Positions 32,905 to 63,483 of a DNA stretch of 64,000 nt are shown here, in pieces (position 1 is the stretch's first letter; each line of letters opens with the position of its first letter). Below the pieces are notes generated by a model. It was not told the origin of the DNA. It did not search any database and saw only the letters and a program-made list of their open reading frames with translations. Source of the stretch: Antarctobacter albus (lineage in GTDB: Bacteria > Pseudomonadota > Alphaproteobacteria > Rhodobacterales > Rhodobacteraceae); contig NZ_FMZI01000005.1 of assembly GCF_900101505.1 (NCBI RefSeq), positions 1 to 64,000 on the forward strand, given 5' to 3'. The position numbers were made by a program, and so were the translations under genes.

Positions 32905-34077
32905 ATGCACGTCACCACTTTGATCCTTGGCGCCGGCGCCGCCGGCATGATGGCCGCCGCCTTTGCCGGGCCGGATGTGCTGGTCGTGGACCATGCGAAA
33001 AACCCCGGCGAAAAGATCCGCATCTCCGGCGGCGGGCGTTGCAATTTCACGAATATGTATTGTGATTCCAATGCCTTCCTTTCGGAGAACCCTCATTTCT
33101 GCAAATCCGCCCTGGCCCGCTACACGCAGTGGGATTTCCTCGACCTCGTCGGGCAGTATGACATCGCCTGGCACGAAAAGACGCTGGGACAACTCTTTTG
33201 CGACGGAAAATCCACGCAGATCGTGGACATGCTATTGAAAGAAATGGAGAAATCCGGCGCACAGCTCTGGCTTCGGACCCAGATCAAGGACGTCCGCCAT
33301 GCCGACGGCCGCTTTGTCACCTCGCTTGAGCGCGACGGAAAACCCATTGAAATCACGTCAAAAAACCTGATCCTGGCCACGGGCGGCAAGTCCATCCCCA
33401 AGATGGGCGCCACGGGGATTGCCTATGACATCGCCCGCCAGTTCGGCCACGCCATCACCGAAACCCGCCCCGCACTGGTCCCCCTGACCTTCGGAGACCG
33501 CTTTGCACCGCTTTCTGGCGTTTCCACCAATGCCTTGGTTTCAAATAATAAAACCAGCTTCGAAGAGGCGCTTCTTTTCACCCATCGCGGGTTGTCCGGC
33601 CCCGCCATCCTGCAAATTTCAAGCTATTGGCACGAGGGCGAAGAGATCACCGTCAACCTCTTGCCCGGTCGGGATTTTCCCGAAATCCTGAAGGCCTGCC
33701 GCCAGACCGAGGGCCGCCGCGCCGTGACGACGGAGCTGGCCACGCATCTGCCTGCACGCCTCGTCGAGTTTCTGGGTCAGGACATTGATCTGAAAGGGAA
33801 TATCGCCGATCTCTCCGACGCCCGCATCGACGCGCTTTCCGACAGTCTCACCGCATGGCGCCTGAAACCCACCGGCTCCGAAGGCTATCGCACCGCCGAG
33901 GTCACGCTGGGCGGGGTCTCGACCGAGGGGGTCGACTCCAAGTCCATGATGTCAAAGCATCTTCCCGGCCTCTACGTGATCGGAGAGGCAATCGACGTGA
34001 CCGGCTGGCTGGGCGGCTACAACTTCCAGTGGGCCTGGGCCTCCGGCGTGGCGGCAGGCCGCCACATTGCCGCATAA
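32905..34077 (+). CDS. HI0933-like (YhiN/BaiN-type) flavoprotein
   Basis: 390 aa. FAD-dependent oxidoreductase family: N-terminal dinucleotide fold LILGAGAAGMMAA, then the family signature KIRISGGGRCNFTN, ILATGGKSIPKMGATG and C-terminal GVSTEGVDSKSMMSK / GEAIDVTGWLGGYNFQWAWASG. A molecular function is not firmly established for most members. It is on the plus strand inside the otherwise minus-strand dcw cluster, convergent with murD, so it interrupts the cluster. The ATG at 32905 is used because the frame upstream only encodes the 9-bp repeat. Confidence 0.9.
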   Translation: MHVTTLILGAGAAGMMAAAFAGPDVLVVDHAKNPGEKIRISGGGRCNFTNMYCDSNAFLSENPHFCKSALARYTQWDFLDLVGQYDIAWHEKTLGQLFCDGKSTQIVDMLLKEMEKSGAQLWLRTQIKDVRHADGRFVTSLERDGKPIEITSKNLILATGGKSIPKMGATGIAYDIARQFGHAITETRPALVPLTFGDRFAPLSGVSTNALVSNNKTSFEEALLFTHRGLSGPAILQISSYWHEGEEITVNLLPGRDFPEILKACRQTEGRRAVTTELATHLPARLVEFLGQDIDLKGNIADLSDARIDALSDSLTAWRLKPTGSEGYRTAEVTLGGVSTEGVDSKSMMSKHLPGLYVIGEAIDVTGWLGGYNFQWAWASGVAAGRHIAA

Positions 34078-42766: not shown

Positions 42767-43279
42767 TCAGACCTCCTCGACCTCGTCCAGCCACTCCATC
42801 GGATCCTCGGGCAGATCTTCCATCAGGTCGTCTTCTTCGATCGCATCTGTCGGCTGATAGCGGTCCGCCGCCCAGATCTGGAACTTGTTCAGGCTGGCCA
42901 CCGCGTAGGTTTCGCCATCGATGTCATAGCGCGCCCGCAGCTTGGCCGGGATCACGATGCGCCCGGTGTCGTCGACCGAGGCATTCACCGACCCCGAGGA
43001 ATAGATCTTGGACAGCACCCGCTTGCGTTCGCCCGATTTCATCGCATCGATCCGATCCTCGATGCGCTCCATCTCTTCGACCGTATAGCATTCCAGGTAG
43101 GGCAGACGCGGATTGCCATAGACCATGACAAAGCCCGGGTTGCCGTTGTCCTTGGAATCCTTCTCCCAATCGGGGTCACCGGCCTCGAGGACACGACGAA
43201 AGGAGGCGGGAATGCTCATCCGCCCCTTGCCATCGACCTTCAGTCGATGCTCGCCTCTGAACCTCAGCCTGCGGCTCAC
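42767..43279 (-). CDS. mraZ: transcriptional regulator MraZ
   Basis: 170 aa from a GTG at 43279. Two AbrB/SpoVT-like half-domains: HRLKVDGKGRMSIPASFR and DDTGRIVIPAKLRARYD. A long acidic tail (EEDDLMEDLPEDPMEW) follows, longer than in E. coli. First gene of the dcw cluster; MraZ binds repeats upstream of its own gene in other bacteria, but I could not find a clear TGGG array here. Confidence 0.95.
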   Translation of the reverse strand: MSRRLRFRGEHRLKVDGKGRMSIPASFRRVLEAGDPDWEKDSKDNGNPGFVMVYGNPRLPYLECYTVEEMERIEDRIDAMKSGERKRVLSKIYSSGSVNASVDDTGRIVIPAKLRARYDIDGETYAVASLNKFQIWAADRYQPTDAIEEDDLMEDLPEDPMEWLDEVEEV

Positions 43280-43318
43280 TGCCCTCGGCCCCTCAATTCC
43301 CCCGTTTGAAACGAAATA

Positions 43319-43354
43319 CGGCGGGTTGATCAGCTGCCATTGATCAACCCGCCG
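43319..43354 (-). promoter_or_regulatory. perfect 14-bp hairpin in the dcw leader
   Basis: CGGCGGGTTGATCA and its exact complement around an 8-nt loop, 40-75 bp upstream of the mraZ GTG. Read toward mraZ it is followed by TATTTCGTTTC. It may act as an attenuator, an RNA stabiliser or a protein site (it contains TTGATCAA twice). Confidence 0.65.
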
Positions 43355-43358
43355 CTTG

Positions 43359-43373
43359 ACCCGCTAAGCGGGT
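43359..43373. promoter_or_regulatory. 15-bp palindrome beside the leader hairpin
   Basis: ACCCGCT-A-AGCGGGT, perfect 7-bp arms around one base, only 5 bp from the larger hairpin. Possible operator half of the same regulatory region. Confidence 0.5.
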
Positions 43374-43935
43374 GTCTCCGACTGCGCGCGCCACCTGGGG
43401 GGATGTCTGCTCGCCCGCGCGCCGGATCCTTGTTGTCACGATGAGAGCGGATGCCTGTATGAAACCTGCTCTTGTTGTTTTTGTGAGTTCGGTGCCGGGC
43501 CTTGGGTGCCCTTGCTTCCGTGTCCCATCGTGTGAGTTAGTGATGCCATGCCACTTCATGGTAATCAATCCCTTTTTGGGGGAAATCGCGGAATGCGAGT
43601 GTAGTCAGAGCCTTGAAAATAGGGCGCCACCGATCACACAGGACACAATCTGCGCAAACCTAGCGAACCACAACACACCCAACACAAGATATAGACAAAC
43701 CTGATGGCGAGAAAAATTTCCCCTGCGGTCCCACGAAATCCACGTCAATCGGGCTTTCCGCACCGAGTGACCGCAGGAAGCAAGCGCTTGATGCCTTATT
43801 CCCAACGGCGAATCACCCTGAATCGCACCGTAACCATGAATTTCGGCAGGGTCTTGCCCGCCTGGGCCAGGTTTTCCCATGCCGAGTGCCATCAATTCCC
43901 AAACCGGGGTCCAATACGGTTTCTTGCAGGATGCC

Positions 43936-43985
43936 TGTAGCGTGACTGTAGCGTGACGCTTGTAGCGTGACTGTAGCGTGACGCT
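43936..43985. repeat. 2 x 25-bp perfect tandem repeat
   Basis: A 25-bp unit repeated exactly twice. Each unit is built from two TGTAGCGTGAC elements plus GCT and ends with the palindrome AGCGT-G-ACGCT. It lies 126 bp past the 3' end of the 182-aa membrane protein gene and marks the mraZ-side border of the low-GC segment. Confidence 0.85.
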
Positions 43986-44110
43986 AACATTTGCAGTGAA
44001 TTACACTAGGATTTACAGCAACGGCGCTTCAGCCCGATGCACCTAGCTTGCAGCGCGGCAAGCTTCGAGGCGTACCACGTCTCCGACCAAGAATACTCTT
44101 CGTCCAGAGG

Positions 44111-44659
44111 TCACTTCCCCACCGGATCATCGCCAGGATGCGATTTCTCTTTGAGCCGTCGCACATACTCAGGCGAGCGGTCATCAAGCGCTGCGTCATA
44201 TTTGGCCATCTGCAACTGAGACAGAGAGTTGGGCAAGGTGAAGGATGCGAGGAAAACAAAAATAGCCACACCCACGAAGGCGCGCTCAAACCAGACGATC
44301 AACGTCACATAGGTTGAAGGGATCAAGAACATGGCTAACGCAAGGCCCAGTGTGACCAGATACAAATAGAACAACCAACGGTGCCGGCGAAGCTTGGCCT
44401 TTACCTCACGTCGTCCCAGTTGGAGATCCCTCCACTCACTGGGGCCCGGGTCGCCGATGAAGGTTATCACCGCGATTAAGAACCCCGCCAGGATCGAGAA
44501 TACTGTCACGACAGTGTTCACGGCATCCTTGTTGCCAGAGATGAGTGGTTGCAGGAAGTATGCGCCTAACGCGGAGGCGCCAAGCAGCACGACACCACCC
44601 AGTAGACGCGACCACGCATATTTGGATGTACCCTTTTCTGCCTGGCGTTGCTTGGTCAT
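44111..44659 (-). CDS. four-helix membrane protein of a coupled unknown pair
   Basis: 182 aa. A basic N-terminus, then four membrane segments (about residues 18-38, 46-68, 94-122 and 127-150) with a charged cytoplasmic loop between helices 2 and 3 (RDLQLGRREVKAKLRRHRW) and a charged C-terminal tail. Its ATG overlaps the stop of the upstream 317-aa gene (ATGA), so both are made together. Base use is lower in GC than the dcw genes. It could be the membrane effector of a two-gene defence unit; there is no family match I can name. Confidence 0.75.
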   Translation of the reverse strand: MTKQRQAEKGTSKYAWSRLLGGVVLLGASALGAYFLQPLISGNKDAVNTVVTVFSILAGFLIAVITFIGDPGPSEWRDLQLGRREVKAKLRRHRWLFYLYLVTLGLALAMFLIPSTYVTLIVWFERAFVGVAIFVFLASFTLPNSLSQLQMAKYDAALDDRSPEYVRRLKEKSHPGDDPVGK

Positions 44660-45609
44660 TCTAAGAGACCACCTTCGCGGAGCTCCTCAGCATAGACCAG
44701 CATGTGGTCTTCGGCTTGGTTCACATCCACAGAATTTGCAAAGCGATCCAAGCGAACGCGTTTTTTCAGCGAAATTTCGCTCGGTTTAATGGTGTCGCCG
44801 TTCCTGAGCTTGATGACATAATCATCTGCATCCTCGTCTTCGACTAGAAGCTGAGCGGTGCCGTCCATACCGTTGCGCGCCAAGATTGCATCGCCCGCCG
44901 GAACCGATATTTCAAGTTTTACAGTTCCTTTAGTGCTGCTCGCGAGACCACTTGCAGGCTCGTAATTTTTGATAAGGTCGCCTATGGCCTCGCTGACCGG
45001 TGCCAGTAGCTGCCGAACCCCCCAGCCCAAAGAAGGGTTGGCGGGCTCGGGCACGTGGTCGGTAAGCGCTATGTGGACGGCCTCGTCTATTGCAAGATCG
45101 AGTTTCAAGGATGAAACACCACCAGAACTCCGGATCTTGGCCAACTTGTTCACATCGGCGATGCGAACCAGATCGAACTTCGTACAGTCTTCGTTCATCT
45201 CGGCCAAACCGAACAAACCTCGAAGGTAGTTCCCTAGTGAAGCGCCGTTAATGCCCGCGTTCAAAGTGATGACGTGGTTCCCGAAGAGCAGGCCTAAGAA
45301 ATCTGAGTTCAGGAAGTTCTCAGCATTACCTGGTCGCCGTGAATTGACTTGTGTTTGCCGCTGTTCATTCATCGGAATGACCCCAGTGGCTTGATCATCC
45401 ACATACCGTCCACAGTGCACGAACACTCCGCGCTGCCCCACGTCTCGCATCCGAAGACCCATGACGTTGGTTCCGTCGGCGCGCGTCACGACCCGTTCGG
45501 TGGTTAGCGGCAGCGAGTTGAACGCTTGTCGACATTGGTCCTCCAGCGACAGAGGGCCTCCTTCCAACCAGATAACTCGCCGATACTCCAAAAACCGATA
45601 GACGGGCAT
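44656..45609 (-). CDS. soluble protein of a coupled unknown pair
   Basis: 317 aa; ATG at 45609 with AGAAGGAT upstream. No signal peptide or membrane helix. The first 90 residues are mixed strands (MPVYRFLEYRRVIWLEGG ...), then a segment FLGLLFGNHVITLNAGIN with a following 'L-x-x-YL-x-x-L', a central FDLVRIADVNKLAKIRSSGG, and an acidic C-terminal region ending in EELREGGLLE. The layout recalls the soluble partner of RexAB- or Kiwa-type pairs, but I see no motif that proves it. Lower GC than neighbours; first gene of the pair. Confidence 0.75.
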   Translation of the reverse strand: MPVYRFLEYRRVIWLEGGPLSLEDQCRQAFNSLPLTTERVVTRADGTNVMGLRMRDVGQRGVFVHCGRYVDDQATGVIPMNEQRQTQVNSRRPGNAENFLNSDFLGLLFGNHVITLNAGINGASLGNYLRGLFGLAEMNEDCTKFDLVRIADVNKLAKIRSSGGVSSLKLDLAIDEAVHIALTDHVPEPANPSLGWGVRQLLAPVSEAIGDLIKNYEPASGLASSTKGTVKLEISVPAGDAILARNGMDGTAQLLVEDEDADDYVIKLRNGDTIKPSEISLKKRVRLDRFANSVDVNQAEDHMLVYAEELREGGLLE

Positions 45610-45646
45610 TAGAAAATCCTTCTCGCAAACACGGAGAGGTTTTCAT

Positions 45647-45721
45647 TTGGCAACTGATTCTTCCAGTCTTTCGAAGCACTGGTGGCCTGTAGCTGGAAAG
45701 ACTAGAAGAACTCGTTGCCAA
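45647..45721. repeat. 26-bp imperfect inverted repeat between LamG gene and unknown pair
   Basis: Two 26-nt arms (45647-45672 and 45696-45721), 22 of 26 positions complementary, around a 23-nt spacer. Outer blocks TTGGCAAC/GTTGCCAA and inner AGTCTTTC/GAAAGACT are exact. It lies 38 bp upstream of the 317-aa gene start. It could be a terminator for the genes upstream on the minus strand, a cruciform site or a remnant of a mobile element end. Confidence 0.75.
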
Positions 45722-45740
45722 TTCGCTGATGCCCCCCCCT

Positions 45741-46463
45741 TCACCCCCCGATGGTGATGCCCTTCACGCCGGCGGCGAAGGCGGCGAGCCCTGCGGCGTA
45801 GTTGGCGAGGTCCGCGTCGCTGAGCGCGACGTTGTGGGCCGAGAGGAAGGCGAACTCGCCATAGGGCGAGAAGGTTTCGCTGTTGCGCCCGAAGATCGTG
45901 ACGTTGGTCGTGGCGGGCGTGGCCGCGTAGTCGGCCCAGTTGACCGCCTGGATGGCGCCGCCGTTGTGCACCAGGCGCAGCCCGGTATCGTCCTCGGTCA
46001 CGATCACGCTGTTCCAAACATTGGCTGTGACCGAACCGACGTCCACGTTCTGGTTGGCGCCGTCGTTGAAGTTCAGCGTCAGGCTGTCGCTCGACAACAG
46101 GTTGAACCCGTTCGAGACCCCGAAGAGGGTCTGCGACCGGCTGGTGTCCGGCACCCGGTAGATCACCGCCAGCGTGCGGTTCAGCGAGGCATAGTCGTTG
46201 GTCATCTGGAACCGGTGGTACTCACCCGTGCCGGAGAGATCCGGCAGCGTGGCGATGCCGTCGGCCCAGGTCGCGACGTTGCCGCCGGTGGCGGTGGACT
46301 GGTCGGTCATGGCAGCGCCGCCCGCGACGCTGTTCGCGGTGATGTCGGCCGTCATCTTGATGCTGTCGATCAGGCCGGTCTGCGGCTGACTGCCGTAGTC
46401 GGCCAGGCTCGGCAGGGTCTCGTTGTCGGTGGTGACGCCGGAAAGGCGGATCAGGGTGGCCAT
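45741..46463 (-). CDS. LamG-like (concanavalin fold) phage-type protein
   Basis: 240 aa, starting after GGAG. Low in Cys and rich in Asn/Thr/Ala, as in phage tail and adhesin proteins. The second half matches a laminin-G/concanavalin-like carbohydrate-binding pattern: WNSVIVTEDDTGLRLVHNGG, then VTIFGRNSETFSPYGEFAF with the usual final LSDADLANYAAG. The gene begins 1 bp after the stop of the SGNH fragment, so they form one unit. Probably a remnant of a prophage tail or a cell-surface lectin. Confidence 0.6.
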   Translation of the reverse strand: MATLIRLSGVTTDNETLPSLADYGSQPQTGLIDSIKMTADITANSVAGGAAMTDQSTATGGNVATWADGIATLPDLSGTGEYHRFQMTNDYASLNRTLAVIYRVPDTSRSQTLFGVSNGFNLLSSDSLTLNFNDGANQNVDVGSVTANVWNSVIVTEDDTGLRLVHNGGAIQAVNWADYAATPATTNVTIFGRNSETFSPYGEFAFLSAHNVALSDADLANYAAGLAAFAAGVKGITIGG

Positions 46464-46464
46464 G

Positions 46465-47067
46465 TCAGGCTCCTTTCTCGTAGGGGATCGGCTTGTTGAA
46501 GATCACGCCCCAGTTCCACAGCCTCGCGCCGTTGGGGCCTGTGGTGGGGTCGCTGTCGCGCAGGTTGCCGCGACAGCCCGTGGCGGGGCCGCCGCCGTTG
46601 CCGGCGGGGCCGTAGTAGGCATAGGAAAGGCGCGGGTTGGCGCCGATGTCGGCCGAGGTGGTGATCACCACCGTGTCGCGCAGGATGCGCAGCTCCGAGA
46701 TCGCCACCGTGCCGCTGTCGTCCTCGACCACGAAGCCGTAGTCGCCCGGGTCGGTGACGGTCGCGGTGTCGAAGACCAGGGGCGGCTCGGGAACGTGGAA
46801 CCGGCACGAAACGACCCGCGCGCTGTGCTGCGTGATCCGGCGCGGCTCCACCGGGTGCCAGTCCTCGCCGCGCCAGAGCCGCTTGAACATGACCTTGCCG
46901 AACTGCAGGCCGAAGTCGCGCCCGCCGGCCCCGTCCAGGTGGACCGCGTCCGCGTGGGGCACCGGGTAGGTCGGCCCGGCGATCACGATGTCCGGGTCGG
47001 TCTCGGCCGCCTCATTCGCCCCTATTCCGCCTTCACTGTAAGAATGAATGTCATCCAACAGGGGCAC
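46465..47067 (-). pseudogene. C-terminal fragment of an SGNH-type hydrolase
   Basis: About 200 aa from a GTG at 47067. Near its start it has PTYPVPHADAVHLDGAGG, which resembles block V of SGNH/GDSL hydrolases (Asp-x-x-His), but the blocks with the catalytic Ser (GDS) and the oxyanion residues are absent. The rest is a beta-rich domain ending in an ATGCRGNLRDSDP segment reminiscent of phage tail-spike proteins. It lies 76 bp from the divergent exbB-like gene, so the N-terminal half is lost. The frame is open, so it may still be made. Confidence 0.5.
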
Positions 47068-47143
47068 AGCAACACTCGCCCCAGGCGCTATTTCATGAGA
47101 ACACTGTCACAGGCCCCGATCGTCGCTCCAGAAAGACCCGACC

Positions 47144-47806
47144 ATGATGAACAGCCTGAACACATTCACCCAGGTCCTCGACCGCGGCGGCCCGGCGCTC
47201 TGGGCCATTGCGGTCCTCTCGGTGCTGACGCTGACGCTCATCCTTTGGAAACTGTGGCAACTCCTGCGCCTGGGCACCTGGAAACGCGCCGGGGCCGAAA
47301 CCGCCCTGCGCTTCTGGGGCCAGGGGCAGACCACGCTGGCGATGAGCCATATCTCCTTTGATCCGGCGCCGCGGTCCCGCGTGGCACAGGCCGCGATGCA
47401 GGCGCGCCTTTCGATCCCCGAGGAAGACGCCCGCGAAGAGGCGGCCCGCCAGGCCCGAGCCGTGCTGACCGAAACGCGTCTTGGCCTGCGGATGCTCGAC
47501 CTCGTGGTGACAATCGCGCCGCTGATCGGCTTGCTGGGAACGGTGCTGGGCATGATCGACGCCTTCCAGGCGCTGCAGGACAGCGGACAGCAGGCCGACC
47601 CGGCGGCATTGGCCGGCGGCATCTGGGAGGCTCTTCTGACCACCGCCGCCGGCATGGCCGTCGCCATCCCCGCCAGCGTCATGCTCTCGGTCTTCGACGG
47701 CATGGCGGATCGACTGGCCCATGATCTCGAGGACATCGTGACCCGCGTCTTTACCACCCCCTGGGCCTATGCCGGGGAAGAAGAGGACACCCCGGAGACC
47801 GCCTGA
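47144..47806 (+). CDS. ExbB/TolQ/MotA-type proton channel protein
   Basis: 220 aa with three membrane segments: residues about 18-40, 123-145 and 163-188. The second and third carry the family signature TIAPLIGLLGTVLGMIDAF ... IWEALLTTAAGMAVAIPA. With ExbD-like partners it makes a proton channel that powers a periplasm-spanning protein. First gene of a four-gene operon. Confidence 0.92.
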   Translation: MMNSLNTFTQVLDRGGPALWAIAVLSVLTLTLILWKLWQLLRLGTWKRAGAETALRFWGQGQTTLAMSHISFDPAPRSRVAQAAMQARLSIPEEDAREEAARQARAVLTETRLGLRMLDLVVTIAPLIGLLGTVLGMIDAFQALQDSGQQADPAALAGGIWEALLTTAAGMAVAIPASVMLSVFDGMADRLAHDLEDIVTRVFTTPWAYAGEEEDTPETA

Positions 47807-59885: not shown

Positions 59886-61529
59886 ATGGCGCGCTTCATC
59901 TTCATCACCGGCGGTGTGGTCTCTTCGCTTGGCAAGGGGCTGGCCTCCGCCGCCCTTGGCGCACTTCTCCAGGCACGCGGCTTTTCGGTCCGCCTGCGCA
60001 AGCTGGACCCCTATCTGAACGTCGATCCCGGCACCATGTCGCCCTTTGAACATGGTGAGGTCTTCGTCACCGACGACGGTGCCGAGACCGACCTCGACCT
60101 GGGCCACTACGAACGCTTTACCGGCGTGCCCGCGCGCAAGACCGATTCCATTTCCTCGGGCCGCGTCTATACCAACGTGCTGGAGAAAGAGCGCCGCGGC
60201 GATTACCTCGGCAAGACGATCCAGGTCATTCCGCACGTCACCGACGAGATCAAGGACTTCATCTCCATCGGAGAGGACGAGGTCGATTTCATGCTATGTG
60301 AAATCGGCGGCACCGTTGGAGACATCGAGGGCCTGCCCTTCTTCGAGGCGATCCGCCAGTTTTCGCAGGACAAGCCGCGCGGCCAGTGCATCTTCATGCA
60401 TCTGACGCTCCTGCCCTGGATCAAGGCCAGCGGAGAGCTGAAGACCAAGCCGACCCAGCACTCGGTCAAGGAACTGCGCTCCATCGGCATCGCGCCCGAC
60501 ATCCTCGTCTGCCGGTCCGAGGGGCCGATCCCGCAGAAGGAGCGCGAAAAGCTGGCGCTGTTCTGCAACGTCCGCCCCGACAGCGTGATCGCCGCGCAGG
60601 ACCTGTCGTCGATCTACGACGCGCCGCTGGCCTATCACCGTGAGGGCATGGACCAGGCGGTTCTGGACGCCTTCCAGATCAGCCCGGCGCCCAAGCCCGA
60701 CCTATCGAAATGGGAGGATGTCAGCGACCGCATCCACAACCCCGAGGGCGAGGTCAATGTCGCCATCGTCGGCAAATATGTCCAGCTGGAGGACGCCTAT
60801 AAATCCATCGCCGAGGCGCTGACCCACGGCGGCATGGCCAACCGCGTCAAGGTACGGGTCGAATGGGTCGACGCCGAGATCTTTGACCGAGAGGACCCGG
60901 CACCGCACCTCGAGAAATTCGATGCCATCCTCGTCCCCGGCGGCTTTGGTGAGCGCGGGACCGAGGGCAAGATCAAGGCGGCGCAATTCGCCCGCGAACA
61001 CAAGGTGCCTTACCTGGGCATCTGCCTGGGGATGCAGATGGCGGTGATCGAGGCGGCGCGCAACGTCGCTGGTGTGAAAAAGGCGGGATCGGAGGAGTTC
61101 GACCACGAGGCCGGGGAAAAGCGTTTCGAACCCGTGGTTTATCACCTCAAGGAATGGGTGCAGGGCAACGAGAAGGTCAACCGCCGCCCGGACGATGCCA
61201 AGGGCGGCACCATGCGGCTGGGGGCCTATGACGCGGTGCTGACCGAAGGCTCGAAGGTGGCCAAGGTCTATGGCAAGACGGCCATCGACGAACGCCACCG
61301 CCACCGCTACGAGGTCGACATCAAGTACCGCGAGCAGTTGGAAACCAGCGGTCTGTGCTTCTCGGGCATGTCACCCGATGGCAAACTGCCCGAGATCGTG
61401 GAATGGCCGGACCACCCCTGGTTCATCGGCGTGCAGTTCCACCCGGAGCTGAAGTCGAAACCTTTTGACCCGCACCCGCTGTTCAGGGATTTTGTGCGGG
61501 CGGCGAAAGAGGTTAGCAGGTTGGTGTGA
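59886..61529 (+). CDS. pyrG: CTP synthase
   Basis: 547 aa, the normal length. Makes CTP from UTP, ATP and glutamine. The N-terminal synthetase domain begins [20 protein letters not shown]; the glutamine amidotransferase domain carries [22 protein letters not shown] (catalytic Cys) and FHPELKSKP (His, Glu). The ATG at 59886 lies in the conserved position. Often beside secG in this group. Confidence 0.98.
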
Positions 61530-61530
61530 G

Positions 61531-61881
61531 ATGAACGTATCTGATCTGAACGGAATATACGCGGGATTTTTCTCAGGGAGCGCAGCCGAGGCAATCGCAA
61601 TTTTTGCCTTCATTGATGGCAAAATTACAGGCGGCGACCTAGAGGGAACAAAATTTGATGGCCGAATTTCCACTCAAGACAATGAAAGTTATAGCGCTGA
61701 AGTGCGTGTATTTCTCCCTGCTGGCGGGCAAGCAATTCAAGGCGTAAATACTGGAAAAGACGGGCTTGAATACGACACCTCATTTAAGCTCGAAAGTGAT
61801 TTTTTGGAAAAAGACTTTATCCCCCTCACCACCCCTCTTGGGAAAGTAAATATGCGCCTGCAAAAAATAAGGGATCTTTAA
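61531..61881 (+). CDS. lower-GC protein after pyrG, GrlR-like pattern
   Basis: 116 aa with ATG 1 bp after the pyrG stop. Codon use is AT-rich compared with pyrG, a sign of transfer. The N-terminus has LNGIYAGFFSG then IDGKITGGDLEGTKFDGRIS, resembling the GrlR-like beta-barrel (a G-Y start, then GG-D and F-x-G), and the C-terminus reads GKVNMRLQKIRDL. The GrlR assignment is tentative. Forms a pair with the next gene. Confidence 0.65.
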   Translation: MNVSDLNGIYAGFFSGSAAEAIAIFAFIDGKITGGDLEGTKFDGRISTQDNESYSAEVRVFLPAGGQAIQGVNTGKDGLEYDTSFKLESDFLEKDFIPLTTPLGKVNMRLQKIRDL

Positions 61882-61887
61882 GCATCG

Positions 61888-62448
61888 ATGCTTGGCTTGA
61901 CTCCTGACCTACTCGCAGCAATTGCAGCTGCCTTAAGCGCATTTGCGACTATTGCAGCAGCATATGCAGCTTGGCGTGTTCCCAAGTCCGCAGCGATTCT
62001 TTCAGAAACGCTCCGACGAGAGGCTGAGCAAGACAGTGAGCAGAAGCGGCTGAAGCTTTTCGTTTTCACAACAATAATGCAAGAGCGGGCCTCGGTATTC
62101 TCCGCTGAATCTGTTCGTGCACTTAACCTGATTGACGTAGTCTTCAATGACTCGGAACCTGTGCGCGAAGCTTGGGCGGAGCTTTATAATGCCTTCAACG
62201 CAAGAAACGCATCACCTTTTGATCATGACAGCAAGTTGCGCGCATTGCTAAAGGTTATGTCTGAAGATATTGGGCTAGGATCCAAGTTAAAGACAGATGA
62301 CTTGGGCAGAGTGTACTTCCCAAATTCTCTTGCCGAGGAGCATGAGGTTCAACATTTGGAAAGAAAAGCAGCACTACAAAGATTAAAAGGGCCTCCAAGC
62401 GGGCAACACAAGCCGCTTTCGCTTTTTCCTCCCAAGCCTGAAGAATGA
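61888..62448 (+). CDS. DUF6680-like protein with N-terminal membrane helix
   Basis: 186 aa. One hydrophobic helix near the start (LLAAIAAALSAFATIAAAYAAW), then a cytoplasmic helical domain whose MQERASVFSAESVRALNLID and VFNDSEPVREAW pattern fits the DUF6680 family, of unknown function. Lower GC than the chromosome around it. Six bp after the preceding gene, so likely co-transcribed with it. Confidence 0.65.
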   Translation: MLGLTPDLLAAIAAALSAFATIAAAYAAWRVPKSAAILSETLRREAEQDSEQKRLKLFVFTTIMQERASVFSAESVRALNLIDVVFNDSEPVREAWAELYNAFNARNASPFDHDSKLRALLKVMSEDIGLGSKLKTDDLGRVYFPNSLAEEHEVQHLERKAALQRLKGPPSGQHKPLSLFPPKPEE

Positions 62449-62823
62449 AAAGCGAATAGTGCTACGCGTGCTTGCTGTCACAATCGAGTCCCATAGATTT
62501 CCTTAGCCGCGCGAGCGCCGACTCGTGGGGTGGCGCTGCGCTGCAAGGTCTGACCGCGTGCGCTTTTTCGTGCCACGTCCGTAGGACATCAGTGGGTCAG
62601 ACCAGCCCCAACCAAAGCGCCGCCCGTCCCACCAGAGGCGGGATGTCCATCAATGGCGCACCTTTGGTGCGACGGGGCGGGTCATGCCGGAGGCATGCTT
62701 CCAGCATAACGCTGGCGCGGCGCCCTTCGGGCTTGCTTCCGCGCTCGGAGTTTCGCGCACGGATCGCAACACCATAGGAGCGCCCCCCTTCCCGCCCCCC
62801 ACAATCCGCCCTACCCTTTCGCG
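62449..62823. repeat. palindrome-rich intergenic region
   Basis: 375 bp with no gene but several small hairpins in a row: CGCACC-TTT-GGTGCG, the copy of the 26-nt element at 62682-62707, CCAGC-ATAAC-GCTGG and GCCC-TTC-GGGC. A partial copy of the GTAGGGCGG repeat lies on the minus strand at 62803-62815. Looks like an array of dispersed palindromic elements. Confidence 0.6.
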
Positions 62824-63483
62824 ATGATCCGCCGCGTCCTGCCCTCTGTCCTGCTGGTCCTCTTGGTCCTGATGGTGCTGCCCTTCGCCTGGCACGCGCT
62901 CACCCGGCCCGTGCTGGCGCTGCAAAGCGTGCCTGAGGCGCTCGACCGGCTGTTTCATCCCGGCGCGCCGCTCTCGAACCTGGCCATCTATGCCCACATG
63001 ATCACCGGCGCCGTCATCACCGCGACCGTGCCGCTGCAACTCCTCCCGGTGATCCGCCGGCGGGCGCCGGGTTTGCACCGGCTCTCGGGCTATACGCTGG
63101 CCACGACCGCCGTGTTCACCGGCCTCGCCGGGCTGCTTTACATCGCGCTGCAAGGCACCGTTGGCGGCGCCTGGATGTCGGGCTGGTTCGCGCTGTATGG
63201 CGCGCTGATGATCCTCGCGGCGTCCAACACCGTCTACTACGCCATCGACAAGGACGTGACGCGCCACCGCCGCTGGGCGCTGCGCCTGATGGTGCTGGCG
63301 GTGGGCTCTTACCTCTATCGCCTGCACTACGGGCTGTGGTTCGCCACGACAGGGGGCATCGGGGTGGACGATTTCCACGGCCCCTTTGACCGCGCGATGG
63401 TCTGGGCCTTTTACCTGCCCTACCTTGCGCTGCTCGAACTCTGGTTCCTGGGCGAAAGGCGGCTCAGCCGAAAACCAGCGTGA
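62824..63483 (+). CDS. DUF2306 membrane protein
   Basis: 219 aa with five to six membrane segments. Fits DUF2306: the APLSNLAIYAHMITGAVIT region, then LLPVIRRRAPGLHRLSGY with the conserved His/Arg, and DVTRHRRWALRLMVL. Family function unknown, possibly haem-related given the conserved His. Its 3' end overlaps the convergent gene by 20 bp. Confidence 0.82.
   Translation: MIRRVLPSVLLVLLVLMVLPFAWHALTRPVLALQSVPEALDRLFHPGAPLSNLAIYAHMITGAVITATVPLQLLPVIRRRAPGLHRLSGYTLATTAVFTGLAGLLYIALQGTVGGAWMSGWFALYGALMILAASNTVYYAIDKDVTRHRRWALRLMVLAVGSYLYRLHYGLWFATTGGIGVDDFHGPFDRAMVWAFYLPYLALLELWFLGERRLSRKPA

Follow-up and report, generated by a model that had tools for sequence, protein, structure and literature searches.

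A candidate RexAB-like gene pair of Antarctobacter albus: a soluble protein with a predicted RexA fold and a four-helix membrane partner

Introduction

Rex exclusion is among the oldest phage-defence phenotypes, and both sensing by RexA and the action of RexB at the membrane are still open questions; the classic lambda system presumably halts incoming phages through damage to the membrane of the infected cell. Only five RexAB-like systems have been described according to a 2026 paper (PMC12894663), and the report on phage Sbash foresaw a much larger family (PMC6426596, PMC6426606). Here we present a pair of genes, A and B, from a 64,000-nucleotide stretch of Antarctobacter albus (assembly GCF_900101505.1, contig NZ_FMZI01000005.1, positions 1 to 64,000 of the forward strand; "the window" hereafter), which seem to form a remote branch of Rex that has yet to be named: the predicted fold of A, the gene arrangement and, in some relatives, the context are alike, no sequence resemblance can be recognised, and the membrane partner carries a motif of its own.

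The described systems resemble the pair to different degrees. Sbash gp30/gp31 and CarolAnn gp44/gp43 also combine a soluble with a four-helix protein, proposed to be sensor and channel (PMC6426596, PMC6426606), although both phages are actinophages; Sbash is likened here by description. Butters gp30/gp31, again compared by description, is a Rex-like soluble and membrane pair whose roles are reported to be reversed (PMC12894663). In Pseudomonas putida (RexABpp, PP_5643-5644), overexpression of RexApp halts growth only together with RexBpp, and a subpopulation of cells becomes permeable with no detectable depolarisation (PMC12894663). From lambda RexA-RexB itself, the pair differs in having no detectable sequence similarity to it, in the invariant motif FSIL(A/T)GFL of its B, and in that the window copy does not lie beside a repressor gene.

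Results and Discussion

We argue that the pair is probably a module for phage exclusion (abortive infection) of the RexAB kind that has stayed behind at a prophage integration site. The support computed here consists of the RexA fold in the predicted model of A, the fixed A-then-B order, the correlated divergence of the two proteins, the hydropathy helices of B, and a prophage context in which relatives in E. coli phages occupy the place of rexAB. Dimerisation, DNA binding, activation of B by A, membrane damage and phage exclusion would carry over from the known systems.

Gene A (44656..45609, minus strand) encodes a soluble protein of 317 amino acids, the putative sensor/activator, and gene B (44111..44659, minus strand) a membrane protein of 182 amino acids, the putative membrane effector; the end of A overlaps the start of B by 4 bp (44656..44659, minus strand), which probably couples their translation. 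An initial annotation, made by a model from the letters and a list of open reading frames (ORFs) only, had described just such an overlapping pair, with the soluble protein preceding a four-helix one in the order of lambda rexA-rexB, and in all these respects it was right. RexA is the top fold match of the predicted model of A, in which A has the RexA fold, namely a split globular domain with an inserted dimerisation domain; by analogy, A would dimerise and bind DNA non-specifically. No match of window A to the Pfam RexA family (PF15969), or to any Pfam family at E<=1, was obtained, whereas lambda RexA, used as a control, matches PF15969 at 1e-97. Neither A nor B of the window reaches the cut-off of any Pfam or NCBIfam family, and A has hits to two PHROGs whose function is unknown. 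Three A profiles scored 12.2, 16.7 and 13.7 against RexA, where the 95% levels of 150 controls were 17.4, 18.1 and 18.2, and RexA and CarolAnn gp44 likewise go unlinked in this test (14.9). CarolAnn gp44 itself scored 18.5, 15.1 and 19.2 against these profiles, the control maxima being 19.1, 23.1 and 19.5.

The four helices of window B are predicted by hydropathy at residues 19-37, 50-68, 95-113 and 120-138, in agreement with the four reported for RexB, Sbash gp31 and RexBpp (PMC12894663, PMC6426596, PMC6426606). Across 48 loci, simple hydropathy finds four segments in 25, three in 22 and two in one. Over 55 aligned rows, positive charges (K+R) exceed negative ones (D+E) both at the N-terminus (2.6 vs 1.3) and in the loop between the second and third transmembrane helices (TM2 and TM3; 6.6 vs 2.7). 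Since positive segments face the cytoplasm according to the positive-inside rule, the N-terminus and the TM2-TM3 loop would be cytoplasmic. Twelve positions show no variation across 59 rows (F54, S55, I56, L57, G59, F60, L61, F97, Y100, L104, S139 and P143), seven of them in TM2. Window B does not match the Pfam RexB family (PF15968), which lambda RexB as a control hits at 8.5e-92; its only Pfam match of that search is DUF5693 at E 0.16. Among the ORFs of the family loci, no candidate carried the seven published RexBpp positions, by which the P. putida system was compared (at most 4 of 7 matched, in each of two unrelated ORFs). Weak matches to SLATT_4 (window B, E 0.0041, 17 bits against a cut-off of 55) and to CARF_m9--CARF_TM (window B, E 0.063; 10 of 59 B members, best E 0.004) leave room for another origin of B.

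Searches with single proteins recovered few relatives. Both genes were found on Ketogulonicigenium plasmids, and relatives in 3 of the 197 other genomes of the taxonomic family; a search with window A matched no phage record, and peptide-pattern scans using A alone gave no confirmed match in genome or viral contigs. B was first found alone on a Shinella plasmid, a Sinorhizobium plasmid and four E. coli phage records, and in every locus then read out a soluble ORF precedes it. After these weak searches, it was the alignment of B, used as a query, that opened up the family, yielding 36 IMG/VR loci and 36 loci in species genomes, some of which are the same element. Directly upstream of B, an ORF of at least 150 amino acids is present in 65 of these 72 loci and was not found in L053, L066, L072, L083, L036, L042 and L073, partly because the contig ends: fewer than 500 bases lie upstream of B in the first four. 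Although the A proteins had been chosen solely by their position upstream of B, 64 of them fall with 8 others into one single-linkage BLAST cluster (E<1e-4, small database), L069, whose A is cut short, being excluded here and from all later analyses. BLAST does not link window A directly to the enterobacterial A group, only through intermediates; a profile comparison of the window-side and enterobacterial groups gives a score of 287 and a probability of 100.

The two proteins diverge together. When loci with A identities of at least 90% were merged, both here (including hydropathy) and for the tree, 48 non-redundant loci were kept, among which A and B identities correlate at 0.938, a value reached by none of 999 permutations; B is the more conserved in all pairs. 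(L087, whose B is cut by the contig end, was left out of the correlation and hydropathy, the tree and the charge analysis.) With an ORF directly upstream of B in 65 of the 72 loci, the pairing exceeds chance. In the tree, the nearest relative of the window pair is an IMG/VR contig (L017; support 96/81). A literature search, conducted mostly without full texts, returned no paper that could be tied to this A-B family.

In E. coli phages 2G7b and PhiR11_1 (L001 and L002; 4097-5477) a relative of the pair lies between cI and N, the exact place of lambda rexA-rexB, and a pair of this type occurs in 7 of 5,426 complete E. coli genomes. In the 2G7b record gene B is unannotated, and a short ORF on the opposite strand is listed there instead. 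In these two phages and in L045 the pair is located downstream of a CI-type repressor; L088, L022 and L076 have repressor-like genes at an upstream distance of 570-1376 bases, and L041 has a partial one. The window copy does not have this position, which was recognised in a minority of the loci. Repressors, Q-like antiterminators, O-like proteins and holins are found among the 146 genes neighbouring 22 viral loci; the neighbours of 25 genome loci are varied, with no family matched by more than two among the matches listed. The pair has the character of a cassette, with no constant partner gene. On the Ketogulonicigenium plasmid, restriction-modification genes adjoin it.

If the pair works as those of lambda, Sbash, CarolAnn and P. 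putida do, A would be the sensor and activator and B the membrane effector. A, with its RexA fold and probably as a DNA-binding dimer, would be switched on by an infecting phage and would then contact the positive TM2-TM3 loop of B; B, a small four-helix protein and probably an oligomer, would permeabilise the inner membrane, so that growth would stop and the infection abort. The membrane-acting anti-phage role guessed at in the initial annotation is supported, the function itself by analogy. The roles might conceivably be reversed, as in mycobacteriophage Butters, where a Rex-like pair of this logic has been described (PMC12894663), such that soluble A would be a toxic antiviral effector and B would merely keep it inactive. 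We consider this improbable, given that four of the five described systems (lambda, RexABpp, CarolAnn and Sbash; PMC12894663) have their membrane protein as effector, and that the greater conservation of B and its invariant membrane motif suit an effector, without proving one. About as improbable is a prophage module that regulates lysogeny or lysis timing, biasing the lysogeny switch or acting through a holin-like B, in place of excluding other phages. Such a role would agree with the ability of lambda RexA to bias the switch without RexB (PMC11077077), with the repressors, antiterminators and holins near viral loci, and with weak holin-type matches of window B (phrog_297, E 0.58) and of the S. 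fredii B (PF16083, E 0.011); however, the pair also occurs beside varied host genes and restriction-modification genes, and has no constant phage partner.

The initial annotation had also pointed to Kiwa, a two-gene defence system of membrane KwaA and soluble KwaB with similar protein sizes. This kinship is very improbable: RexA, as said, is the top fold match of A, the gene order of Kiwa is the reverse of ours, and its models in PADLOC match neither window protein at E<=1 and, at E<=0.5, no protein among 50 A and 59 B relatives. The candidate PDC-M67A/B, another PADLOC entry, matches the two halves of the pair weakly (A: 1 of 50, E 0.019; B: 1 of 59, E 2.1e-4). Among 28 records, M67B was found in one (E 0.002) and M67A in none; M67A is also absent from 14 control genomes, among which the M67B model matches Bacillus subtilis and Bacteroides ihuae. 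We take this as a lead that the Rex-like arrangement may reach further; our literature search found no paper bearing the PDC-M67 name. Finally, and compatibly with any of these readings, the window copy could be the silent relic of an eroded prophage in a family that is still an exclusion system. The adjoining phage genes are fragments, the pair is present in one of six genomes of the genus, and a scan of 43280-47140, which covered sigma-70-like promoters only, found none; both ORFs are nevertheless uninterrupted, and almost their whole length can be aligned with relatives, and we regard a relic as rather unlikely.

Lambda RexAB could, as we tentatively propose and with somewhat less than even confidence, be a small twig of an old and broad mobile exclusion superfamily, which would combine a DNA sensor of RexA/RdgC fold with a four-helix channel bearing the invariant FSIL(A/T)GFL in its second helix, and in which the sensor would evolve more quickly than the channel, as though in pursuit of phage triggers, with the membrane part held constant. 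A searchable sequence family and twelve invariant positions in the membrane partner now offer residues to test, and the relative in the rexAB slot of 2G7b and PhiR11_1 offers a model for study in laboratory E. coli.

Genomic setting of the locus

The pair lies between mraZ and an exbB-like gene, names that we take from reading the proteins. This gap (window 43279-47144) measures 3.9 kb here; of five congeners (G933-G937), two have about 40 kb in its place, two have 0.8 kb and the remaining one has 2.5 kb, so that it is an insertion hot spot. Up to 44023/44024 the left flank is common to the window, G936 and G937; from 45740 the right side is common to the window and G936, with 45740-46153 and 46240-46385 recurring at the right end of the 40-kb G936 insert. 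Hence the pair fills a variable slot (44024..45740), occupied in G936 and G937 by some 38 kb of phage-like DNA. Read by eye, the G936 insert appears to be a prophage from its large tail-like ORFs and a repressor-like ORF, as does that of G937 from its similarity to the former; the pair may be either a leftover of a prophage of this type or an independent insertion.

Several flanking features reported in the initial annotation were recovered. A tandem repeat (43936..43985; a 25-nt unit repeated twice with 100% matches) lies just left of the slot, and phage tail-gene debris (45741..47067, minus strand) lies to its right; it comprises a Laminin_G_3 match slightly below the Pfam cut-off (45741-46463, E 1.6e-5) and the tail-fibre family phrog_4201 (46465-47067, E 8.6e-51). 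The "large inverted repeat" stands in part: upstream of A, between it and the debris, there is an imperfect hairpin at ~45647..45721 (fold z-score -3.93; one of 200 shuffles folds equally well), which is absent from the pair list of the repeat finder. The lower GC (guanine plus cytosine) content of the pair was likewise confirmed, the two 1-kb bins across 44001-46000 having 0.540 and 0.583 vs 0.61-0.72 in nearly all others. Further low bins are 33001-34000 (0.591) and 43001-44000 (0.566), and a second low-GC stretch spans 61001-63000 (0.549 and 0.577). A 15-pair terminator-like hairpin occupies 43318-43355 on the minus strand, downstream of the pair and immediately ahead of mraZ; it also self-aligns inverted in congeners.
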